The translations under genes and the position numbers were made by a program. The notes under the pieces are model-generated. The model worked only from the letters and a program-made list of their open reading frames with translations, had not been told where the DNA came from and searched no databases. A DNA stretch of 64,000 bases from Sphingomonas sp. Leaf67 (GTDB lineage Bacteria > Pseudomonadota > Alphaproteobacteria > Sphingomonadales > Sphingomonadaceae). Each line of letters starts with the position of its first letter. Positions within the stretch are counted from its first letter, which is position 1. The DNA lies in the NCBI RefSeq assembly GCF_001421965.1, contig NZ_LMLP01000012.1, positions 186,805 to 250,804 on the forward strand. Direction: 5' to 3'. This document shows positions 28,755 through 44,083 of the stretch, one piece after another.

Positions 28755-29756
28755 CTATTCGAGGTTGAAGCCGCGCACGACACGGGTTTCCCCGTCGAGT
28801 GTCTCGACCAGCGCCACCGGCACATCGTCCAGTGTTGCGAAGCCCAGACCGTCGTCCGCTGCAAACCCGATCAGTCGAAGCCCCTTGCGGAGCCGCCCTG
28901 CCTGATCGGGGTTCAGGGACAGAGCCGGGATGTCGTCCAGCCCCGCCCCCAGTGGCAGGAGCGTTTCTTCAAGCGCGTGGCCCTTACCCAATTCCGCCAG
29001 TTTGTCCAGCGAAATGGCCGATTCGAGGGTGAATGGGCCGGCTTTGGTGCGTCGAAGCATGGTGACGTGGCCGACCGTGCCGAACGCCAGCGCGATGTCG
29101 CGCGCGAGGGAGCGGATATAGGTGCCCTTGGAAACGAAGGCGGAGAGGGTGATTTCGTTTAGCTCCTCCCCAGCATGGGGAGGGGGACCATCCGCAGGAT
29201 GGTGGAGGGGGGTAGCTGCATCCACAGCGGTTGCGTCCGGCGGCGAGCCCCCTCCACCAGCTTCGCTGGTCCCCCTCCCCGTGCCGGGGAGGATTTGCAG
29301 AGAGAACACCGCCACCTTCCGCGTCGCGAGGACGACCTCTTCCCCCTTGCGCGCAAGGTCATAGGCCCTCTCGCCATCGACCTTCAGCGCCGAAAAGGCG
29401 GGCGGCACCTGTTCGATCGGGCCGGTGAAGCGCGCCAGCACCGATTCGATGTCGGCAAGCGTCGGTCGAACCGGCGACTCGGCAATGACCTTCCCTTCAA
29501 GATCGAGCGTATCGGTCTGCGCACCGAAGCGAATCGTGAAATCATAGCGTTTCGACGCATCGAGCATCCGCCCGGCCAGCTTCGTCGCTTCGCCGATCGC
29601 GACCGGCAGCACGCCCGTCGCCAGTGGATCGAGCGTCCCGCCATGGCCGACCTTGTGCTTGCCATAGCCGCCGTCGCGCAGGGCGCGCTTCACCGCCGAA
29701 ACGATCTGCGTCGATCCGGGGCCGAGCGGTTTGTCGATAATGATCCAGCCGTGCAT
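28755..29756 (-). CDS. truB: tRNA pseudouridine(55) synthase with in-frame repeat insertion
   Basis: 333 residues from ATG 29756, which shares one base with the tdk stop. The catalytic Asp43 is in [31 protein letters not shown] and the C-terminal PUA-like part are present. Between SLQIL and [16 protein letters not shown], where family members have a short turn, about 43 residues rich in Gly, Pro and Ala are encoded by a 128-base palindromic repeat (29165-29292). The frame remains open and the flanking domain sequence is intact, so the enzyme is probably active with an extra surface loop. Confidence 0.93.
29165..29292. repeat. REPIN-like palindromic element inside truB
   Basis: Left arm 29165-29211 (47 bases) and right arm 29248-29292 (45 bases) are inverted copies, each itself folding into two small hairpins (CCTCCCC..GGGGAGG and GGACCA..TGG). 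The first 44 bases of the right arm recur identically at 42037-42080 in a spacer. The whole element lies in the truB reading frame. Confidence 0.88.
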
Positions 29757-30331
29757 CAGCGCATCGCCTCGCAGAAATGGCGGCGGCATAGCGCGACGTA
29801 GCGATCGTTGCCGCCGATCTCGGTCTGTTGCCCGTCGCGGACGGCGCGGCCTTGCGGGTCGACGCGCAGGTTCATCGTCGCCTTCCGGCCGCAGGTGCAG
29901 ACCGATTTGAGTTCGATCAGCGCATCGGCGATCGCCAGCAGGCGGGCCGAACCGGGGAAGAGGCTCCCCCGAAAATCGGTACGCAGGCCGTACGCGAGGA
30001 CCGGTACGCCGAGGTCGTCGGCAACCTTCGCCAGTTGGTCGACCTGCTCCGCCGACAGAAACTGCGCTTCATCGACCAACACGCAGCCGACGGCGTGCTG
30101 CCGATGCTGCGCAGCGACACTTTCGAGCAGATCGGTGTCCGCGTCGAACGGCGTCGCCGGCGCGGACAGGCCGATGCGCGACCCGATCGTACCGGCGCCG
30201 TCGCGGGTGTCGATCGCGGCCGTGAACAGCAACGTGGTCAGGCCGCGCTCCCGATAGTTGAAATCGGCCTGCAGCAGCGTCGTCGATTTGCCGGCGTTCA
30301 TCGACGCATAATAGAAATAGAGCTTGGCCAC
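29756..30331 (-). CDS. tdk: Thymidine kinase
   Basis: 191 residues of the type II thymidine kinase family. P-loop [10 protein letters not shown] near the N-terminus, the DEAQF magnesium/base-binding motif, and zinc cysteines in CTCGRK and CRRHFC. It salvages thymidine to dTMP. It is wedged between rbfA and truB with one-base spacing on both sides, so it is co-transcribed with translation-factor genes, an uncommon position for tdk. Confidence 0.95.
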
Positions 30332-41749: not shown

Positions 41750-42036
41750 ACGCCTGCCCCGGACGGGGTGCTGGAAGTTGGCGAAGTTGACAGGACGTCG
41801 GGGTTGCGAAGCGGCCTCGGCGTTTTGTTTTTCGTTGCAGTGCAGAGGGTTGGCGGCCTGCGGGGGCGGCGGCGATGCATGGAAGTTGACACGGGGGGGG
41901 GGGGCTGGTGCCGGGTTTGGGGTTCGGGCCTGCTGCGGGAGGTTCGAGGTTCGGCGAGGAGAAAGAACGTCGTCAGGCTGGTAGGGTTGGCGGGTGTAGG
42001 AAAGCGCTTCCCGGCCGCCCCTCCGTATGCGGAAAT
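41750..42036. other. Gene-free spacer with poly-G tract
   Basis: No plausible gene. It holds a tandem GAAGTTGGC-GAAGTTGAC near 41775, a second GGAAGTTGAC near 41882, a run of 12 G at 41893-41904, and GGTGTAGGAAAG at about 41994, which recurs at 43718 in another spacer. Composition is G-rich and unlike coding DNA. Confidence 0.6.
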
Positions 42037-42080
42037 CCCCCTCCACCAGCTTCGCTGGTCCCCCTCCCCGTGCCGGGGAG
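42037..42080. repeat. Single REP unit identical to the truB repeat arm
   Basis: These 44 bases are identical to 29248-29291, the right arm of the palindrome in truB. The unit folds as two hairpins (CCACC..GGT and CTCCCC..GGGGAG) and ends four bases before the stop codon of the YjbQ gene. Confidence 0.9.
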
Positions 42081-42084
42081 CATG

Positions 42085-42504
42085 TTATTCGCCTAGCAGG
42101 TGGACGGCGACCCTCCGGCGGTGCGCGCCTTTGCGGTGTTCGAACAGGTAGATGCCCTGCCAGATGCCGAGCACCGGGCGGTGGCCGATAACGGGAATCG
42201 ACAGCGACGTGTTGGTCAGCGCCGTGCGCAGATGCGCGGGCATGTCGTCCGGCCCTTCCTTGTCATGGGCGTAGCGGTCGCTTTCGGGGGCGATGTGGCG
42301 GAAGAAGCGTTCGAGGTCGTCGCGCGCGGCGGCGCTGGCATTTTCCTGCACCAGCAGCGAGGCCGAGGTGTGGCGGCAGAACAGCGTCAGCAATCCGTCG
42401 CTGATGCCGGTCGCCTCGACCCAGTGGCGGACCTGCCCGGTCATCAGGACCAGCCCCTGTCCGTTGGTGGTGACCACCAGCTCGCCATGTTCCTGTCGCA
42501 TCAT
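42085..42504 (-). CDS. YjbQ-type protein (UPF0047, secondary thiamine-phosphate synthase-like)
   Basis: 139 residues from ATG 42504 (42501 also possible). LLTLFCRHTSASLLVQENA, DLERFFRHIAPE, GPDDMPAHLRTALTNTSLSIPV and LGIWQGIYLFEHR are the family motifs. YjbQ homologues complement thiE mutants weakly in E. coli, but the native role is unsettled. Single gene, divergent from the nitronate monooxygenase. Confidence 0.92.
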   Translation of the reverse strand: MMRQEHGELVVTTNGQGLVLMTGQVRHWVEATGISDGLLTLFCRHTSASLLVQENASAAARDDLERFFRHIAPESDRYAHDKEGPDDMPAHLRTALTNTSLSIPVIGHRPVLGIWQGIYLFEHRKGAHRRRVAVHLLGE

Positions 42505-43890: not shown

Positions 43891-44083
43891 ACCCCGGATC
43901 ATGTCGAGACCTCTGCGAAAGTGCTGTATCTCACCCACTGCCGTACCCCCGCGCAGGCGGGGGTCCAGAGCCAGGCAGAACAACGGCTTGCGCCTGGAAC
44001 CCTGGACCCCCGCCTGCGCGGGGGTGCGGCGAACTCTTGGCCAAGCGTGCGACTTTCGCCGAGGGCTCGATCAAGTCCGGGGT
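43891..44083. repeat. Nested palindromes: one repeat inserted in another
   Basis: Outer arms 43891-43922 and 44052-44083 are inverted copies at 25 of 32 positions. Between them sits an independent element with perfect 24-base inverted arms at 43945-43968 and 44002-44025 (ACCCCCGCGCAGGCG type). The layout suggests a younger element landed inside an older one. Confidence 0.8.

Follow-up and report, generated by a model that had tools for sequence, protein, structure and literature searches.

Palindromic repeats translated in frame within housekeeping genes are known from Rickettsia as Rickettsia palindromic elements (RPEs), and miniature inverted-repeat transposable elements (MITEs) are small and non-autonomous and have inverted ends. 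The present work concerns a palindromic repeat, designated family A, that lies in the reading frame of truB, the gene for tRNA pseudouridine(55) synthase, in a 64,000-nucleotide stretch of Sphingomonas sp. Leaf67 (contig NZ_LMLP01000012.1, positions 186,805 to 250,804, hereafter the window). Repetitive extragenic palindromic (REP) sequences are reported in PMC3733652 within truB of S. maltophilia, E. litoralis and S. alaskensis and within tRNA synthetases of three species, and RPE-1 is reported there to interrupt R. conorii truB. According to the same paper, REPs in genes of one functional category sit at different sites, except in recB of two Xanthomonas (PMC3733652). REP doublets forming hairpins (REPINs), their link to REP-associated tyrosine transposases (RAYTs) and excision-type deletions are described in PMC3116915.

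Events of this kind are already known; what is new is that they recur across families, genes and species. A literature search, from whose coverage subscription papers were largely missing, returned no account of a recurrent landing loop used by several families. S. alaskensis and E. litoralis belong to the Sphingomonadales. Here we propose that non-autonomous, REPIN-like repeats insert widely, are mostly purged where they land in genes, survive in a few permissive surface turns and leave scars upon deletion, a reading to which we assign a probability of roughly 0.7.

Results

The palindrome in truB and its place in the protein

The minus-strand open reading frame (ORF) of truB extends from 28755 to 29789 and encodes 344 amino acids (aa) when counted from the first ATG (29789), the likelier start being MHGWII at 29756. 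The features of the locus are as follows.

28755–29756, minus strand: truB, tRNA pseudouridine(55) synthase, whose frame continues through the insert (ORF; Pfam TruB_N and TruB_C_2; NCBIfam TIGR00431).
29164–29293, no strand assigned: complete family A palindromic element, TCCTCCCC...GGGGAGGA, 130 nucleotides (nt) (sequence, repeat search and copies in the same genome).
29164–29210, plus strand: first arm, with the outer hairpin TCCTCCCC-loop-GGGGAGG followed by the inner hairpin CCATCCGCAGGATGG (sequence and arm structure in the same genome).
29248–29293, minus strand: second arm, inverted; 29248–29291 identical to 42037–42080 (direct sequence comparison).
42029–42083, plus strand: spacer copy of one arm, 93% identical to 29240–29294 (repeat search of the window).

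A palindrome within the truB frame had been predicted at 29165–29292; it is real, and its extent proved slightly larger (29164–29293). The 44-base identity with the copy at 42037, also predicted, is exact, and that copy adjoins a minus-strand ORF ending at 42085. The element consists of two inverted REP-type arms with a 37-nt centre between them, and the repeat search of the window showed that its outer arms (29164–29190 and 29267–29293, 27 nt) are 93% complementary. The palindrome is in frame and, when translated, would add a loop of about 44 residues. Pfam found TruB_N at residues 43–167 and TruB_C_2 at residues 226–282, before and after the insert, which therefore lies between two intact domains, as the original prediction held; the whole protein scored above the cut-off of TIGR00431 TruB (NCBIfam).

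The folding energy of the coding-strand insert was −95.7 kcal/mol (calculated with the stretch one base out of register), and the 150-nt truB loop folded with z = −8.7 against 50 mononucleotide shuffles, indicating that the palindrome is not due to chance. An Rfam scan returned chance hairpin matches only, all far under the gathering scores, and hence no known RNA family. A second palindromic pair at 43940–44030 of the window (29-nt arms, 97% complementary, 33 nt between them, ACCCCCGCGCAGGCGGGGGTCCAG core) represents a repeat type other than family A.

In the AlphaFold model (53 sequences, mean predicted local distance difference test score (pLDDT) 85.8), the insert had pLDDT values of 35–42, most other blocks exceeding 85, and was located between modelled strands 146–155 and 201–208. 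The insert is thus modelled as the disordered tip of a β-hairpin preceding the conserved KGTYIRS strand. Compared with E. coli TruB (1k8w), the PDB chain has 3 residues where the window protein has 42, between query residues 166 and 209. The ratio of nonsynonymous to synonymous substitution rates (dN/dS) was 0.73 and 0.36 for the insert, compared to 0.09 and 0.14 for the flanks, in the two pairs with both parts scored, and 0.36–0.75 for the insert over all four pairs scored; the flanks of the two window pairs, whose split lengths differed, were left out. On two strain pairs, the translated peptide looks nearly neutral.

Family A is a dispersed, REPIN-like repeat

A search of the Leaf67 genome with family A gave 83 strand-wise matches, corresponding to 43 distinct places. 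These were covered by 39 loci, one place being taken per locus; for L303, L306 and L292, the position tested for reading frame was one of several neighbouring places each. The 39 loci yielded 23 full-length copies of 118–146 nt. Each arm has the structure TCCTCCCC-loop-GGGGAGGGGGACC-stem-GGTGGAGGGGG and contains two hairpins. The inner stem had 23 spellings in the 33 arms read, and at least three self-complementary pairs were present in 19 of these 23. Full-length copies had a mean of 4.96 open frames out of six compared to 3.0 in shuffles (n = 23), and their lengths modulo 3 were distributed as 8/10/5 for remainders 0/1/2. Only two of the 39 places tested were in frame within a gene (open frame, best coding frame on both sides), namely truB and an E2 (dihydrolipoamide acyltransferase) gene, so that the search for further in-frame genomic copies that had been proposed yielded one more. 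Taken together, family A is dispersed in the genome, lies in frame in truB and is modelled there as a disordered hairpin tip.

Relatives of family A were found in 17 of 72,556 plasmid records, 12 from Sphingomonas and five from Sphingobium, the Sphingobium matches being partial. By eye, a small second palindrome is apparently nested in the family A hairpin of the truB loops L193 and L195 of close relatives; a resembling sequence flanks the Leaf67 copy L026 (C23 near 103822), a repeat inserted into a repeat.

No match to the Y1/RAYT family (Y1_Tnp, PF01797) was detected in the Leaf67 genome (25 contigs, 100% complete), although the same search detected the family in five of 14 control genomes. 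Within the genus, 11 of 101 genomes had matches, 10 of them above the cut-off. RAYT was accordingly rejected as the mover in the Leaf67 genome. The repeat had been called REPIN-like, and this holds for a dispersed palindrome at 43 genomic places: two inverted REP palindromes form one dispersed unit (23 full-length units, 39 loci), and the copies are mainly extragenic, as shown by the two in-frame cases among the 39 tested. It does not hold in the strict sense, as the genome yielded no Y1/RAYT transposase. The end tetranucleotides GTAG and CGTC are missing from family A, all 23 copies beginning with TCCTCCCC or a near variant. Its occurrence in frame in a gene that looks intact is a feature that the truB element shares with RPE-type elements. 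No target duplication was seen, the eight aligned filled/empty truB pairs already differing in the loop itself. The best reading of the truB element is that of a non-autonomous, REPIN-like palindromic repeat.

The same truB loop is filled by several repeat families across the genus

A query from the C-terminal part of truB matched 145 of 151 Sphingomonas genomes, a sample from a larger group. The loop was read in 142 of the 145; L063, L090 and L113 were dropped since they have no in-frame N-terminal anchor (contig end or frame break). The results showed that loop lengths are bimodal, with 11–25 aa in 58 genes and 33–79 aa in 84, an insert at this hairpin being the majority state. The original prediction that a translated palindrome of this kind is uncommon outside Rickettsia-type elements was therefore not upheld, given these 84 filled genes and the three non-Rickettsia species with REPs in truB reported in PMC3733652.

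The inserts were classified by BLAST clustering and motif, six loci being re-assigned by hand from motifs, into 61 of family A, 17 CGTC-type REP dimers, four other repeats and two unclassified. Locus L052 carries both a family A and a CGTC-type element; it was counted as A and left out of the clustering, since the families merged through it. A CGTC-like head, recognized by motif, was present in 16 of the 17 CGTC-type inserts and missing from L153. Among loops of at least 60 nt, 78 of 87 folded with z < −2. One arm of the CGTC-type truB insert of genome G023 had 78 matches, the truB locus included; with dozens of them elsewhere in that genome, the CGTC-type insert is therefore a genomic repeat as well. 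The truB of G003 (L050) has an insert of similar length with no clear palindrome or family (z −2.4). The sequences show that one and the same hairpin tip is occupied by unrelated palindromic families in sister species, while many other species have a short loop there.

The best 80 of 339 named loci include same-site inserts from records of Sphingopyxis, Novosphingobium, Altererythrobacter, Erythrobacter and Blastomonas, and the first four of these genera also have ILPxTGRG...GE-like truB loops. Sphingomonas sp. Leaf22 (97%) and eight close named records (L192–L199) carry inserts at the same place. One of these records (L193), titled Bacillus sp. 2B10, holds a Sphingomonas-type truB with 87% identity and is therefore probably mislabelled or contaminated.

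In the order-, class- and phylum-level samples, a split hit served as a mere proxy for a truB insert. At the order level, split hits occurred in 15 of 19 genomes of the Sphingomonadaceae (G158 at a contig end), and the truB hit was in one piece in all 55 matching genomes of other families. Two of 105 matching genomes outside the Sphingomonadaceae were split at the class level, both ambiguous, and none of 126 was split at the phylum level. By this proxy, the site looked empty nearly throughout the samples outside the Sphingomonadaceae.

Probable gain, loss and exchange at the truB loop

A tree was built from the truB flanks, the loop excluded, and changes were counted by parsimony. The filled and empty states required 28 changes, of which well-supported branches force 13; CGTC-type versus the rest required 15 (eight forced), and family A versus the rest 35 (16 forced). 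The sisters G122 (family A) and G170 (CGTC-type) differ in family with a support of 98, and one clade with a support of 97 contains G009, G061 and G091 (CGTC-type) together with G110 and G066 (family A). In the 40 closest filled/empty pairs listed, flanks were 86–95% identical on each side. CGTC-type elements started at nine different offsets (8–46 nt; first motif match, 16 of 17 loops scored). That unrelated families occupy the truB loop shows that elements have arrived there more than once.

Traces of loss were also seen. By eye, the truB loop of G032 keeps both element ends and has lost the middle, whereas its relative G029 has the whole element. Scars of A type were recognized by pattern in four of the 58 short loops, compared to a mean of 0.29 and at most three in 500 shuffles.

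Single landing sites in glyS, leuS, rnr and an E2 gene

The sample for other genes comprised 19 regions from in-frame hits in relatives, mostly long open frames, plus the Leaf67 E2 locus L020, a choice that favours copies in the frame used in truB and in long frames; another Leaf67 region, L287, was left out of the scoring. In 12 of the 20 regions, both coding flanks were in the same frame (three in leuS, four in glyS, two in rnr and three in E2, each gene at one site). NCBIfam was used to name a single example per gene: leuS and glyS were above the cut-offs, RNase R reached 568 bits against a cut-off of 598, and the E2 protein matched several E2 models, all under cut-off; the remaining members were assigned by eye from flank similarity.

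The E2 element was present in G000, G152, G153, G156 and G159. The E2 gene of G151, a close relative whose truB loop equals that of Sphingomonas sp. Leaf22, lacks 126 nt as a single in-frame block, one outer hairpin remaining in an open frame.

For leuS, spanning hits were found in nine of 60 genomes, with G022 added on reading. Three of the seven inserts read (of 10) were family A, and the others showed at least two other palindromes; Leaf67 leuS is short. The frame of leuS in G071 (L337) breaks just past the landing site, which may reflect a pseudogene, a bad deletion or an assembly error.

For glyS, spanning hits were found in 37 of the 57 genomes with a match, and 17 spanning loci were read by eye. 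Four were family A; CGTC-type and CCCTCTCC-type repeats are among the others, and Leaf67 glyS also carries a CCCTCTCC-type repeat; the exceptions were L325, without an obvious repeat, and L322, with a decayed one. Two glyS inserts, L331 (G003) and L332 (G030), begin with a sequence that by eye resembles a tRNA 3′ end (T-arm, then ...CCA), a reading abandoned after an Rfam scan gave no tRNA match. In L276, L277 and L280, a second insert-rich spot was noticed by eye toward the glyS C-terminus, with repeat-like peptides that differ per species. Thus glyS, leuS, rnr and the E2 gene each show, at one site, a pattern like that of truB.

Discussion

We propose that such repeats land all over the genome and that selection would remove nearly all landings within genes. 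Survival would be expected at surface turns able to take up about 40 additional residues, provided that the repeat, being GC-rich and poor in stops, happens to leave the frame open. Deletion between the two arms would later remove copies and leave short hairpins as scars, and the vacant loop could be refilled by another family, both steps being illustrated by the examples above. The translated peptide would be close to neutral, judging from few pairs. The mover would be an enzyme other than any RAYT found in this genome, and what can be said of the mobility and target choice of the truB repeat is conjectural.

Several findings weigh against this reading. Neither a transposition event nor a target duplication nor an exact pre-insertion site was observed: the alignment of related truB genes suggested by the original prediction did reveal short loops, but no exact insertion junction, the empty relatives differing in loop sequence. 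State labels are clustered on the truB tree (28 filled/empty changes compared to 45 for shuffled labels); shuffled labels need more changes, so the states are partly inherited. The tree itself is based on a single gene and a quick method, 62 of its 139 inner branches having support under 80. Later indels could shift the CGTC-type offsets, and CGTC-type scars, in six of the 58 short loops, were not above shuffles (mean 2.1, maximum 8). Neutrality is supported by two strain pairs only, and 50 of the 60 genomes have a leuS with no spanning insert. Covariation in family A is weak as well: among 22 Leaf67 copies, L303 left out, compensatory change was present in four of 31 pairs, and 95% of cells were paired compared to 93.1% (maximum 94.2%) after dealing. 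Covariation was therefore dropped as strong proof of a selected structure.

A tenable alternative, which we hold to be a minority possibility, is that family A reached truB a single time, in an ancestor of the Sphingomonadaceae, and was then passed on by descent, often lost and locally overwritten, only the CGTC-type and minor families being new. Family A starts at five neighbouring offsets, 9–18 nt from the loop start (52 of 61 loops scored), and its right end lies in one frame in 56 of 61. These narrow offsets and the one frame also fit a single old insertion, so a single old arrival of family A with many losses is possible. The ILPxTGRG...GE-like loops of the four other genera and the clustering of A labels (35 changes compared to 46 for shuffled labels) point the same way. 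However, family A uses two left-end frames (41 and 17 of 61, three unclear), and A and empty states alternate between genes with 90–95% identical flanks (for example L039/L136 and L112/L114), the empty loops being traceless by eye. The 16 forced A changes also argue for repeated arrival, although losses alone could suffice.

We consider it unlikely, if worth stating, that in the Sphingomonadaceae the truB, glyS, leuS and rnr loops are standing docking sites whose codons are successively occupied, scarred and reoccupied by unrelated families of palindromic selfish DNA. Either the sites would be actively favoured, for instance through single-stranded DNA exposed where transcription is high, or the inserted hairpins would modulate the translation machinery. 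It is more doubtful that the loop is kept for a function, with the mRNA hairpin or the extra enzyme loop tuning TruB or the expression of a neighbouring gene. The frequency of the insert, the strong RNA stem and the fact that four of the five host genes (truB, leuS, glyS and rnr) act on RNA or translation would fit such a role. It is hard to reconcile, however, with the 58 of 142 relatives that lack the insert, the varying peptide and frame, the interchangeable families, the dN/dS values over the four pairs, the loop modelled as disordered and the metabolic role of the E2 host gene.

Similarly improbable is site-directed insertion, in which the mover recognizes a shared DNA or structural signal and selection plays a minor part. 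The strong recurrence at single sites in five genes is what such a signal would produce, but unrelated families share sites, and by the open-frame and coding-frame criterion 37 of the 39 Leaf67 places tested are not read in frame within a gene. Sequence also varies among the empty loops that were compared, although a common motif was not formally searched for. Strict target specificity in particular is disfavoured by the variable offsets, the CGTC-type elements starting at nine in one loop. Finally, repeats commonly cause assembly errors, but a broken frame or a repeat misassembled into truB is scarcely credible given the open frame, the same-place inserts of Leaf22 (97%) and L192–L199 in independent assemblies and the inserts in the single-contig genomes G010 and G021.

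The original prediction had named two contrary results, one loop sequence shared by distant sphingomonads without palindromic DNA and a lack of other genomic copies. Neither was seen: related sphingomonads hold different palindromes or none at the site, and many genomic copies exist. That different repeats have filled one enzyme loop on more than one occasion within a genus amounts to a natural replicated experiment. Since near relatives include empty, filled, swapped and scarred states, the absorption of selfish DNA by a protein and the lifetime of an insert become open to direct tests, as does any effect of coding-sequence hairpins in translation genes. Annotators should bear in mind that a Gly/Pro/Ala-rich 'loop' in a sphingomonad protein may in fact be a translated repeat.

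Compared with known systems, the truB element resembles MITEs in being small and non-autonomous with inverted ends, but no target duplication was seen for it. Like RPEs, it is a palindromic repeat in frame in a housekeeping gene, a likeness by description; unlike the RPE case, several families share one loop here, and the host is a free-living sphingomonad. With the REPIN/REP and RAYT system, as described in PMC3116915, family A shares two inverted palindromic arms, a short centre and dozens of dispersed copies mostly outside genes, but it has no RAYT in its own genome and two hairpins per arm, and its in-gene copies persist at fixed loops. The GTAG/CGTC-tagged REPs in genes, including truB and tRNA synthetases, reported in PMC3733652 represent the same kind of event, whereas in the present case several families fill a single loop across a genus and family A ends without either tag.
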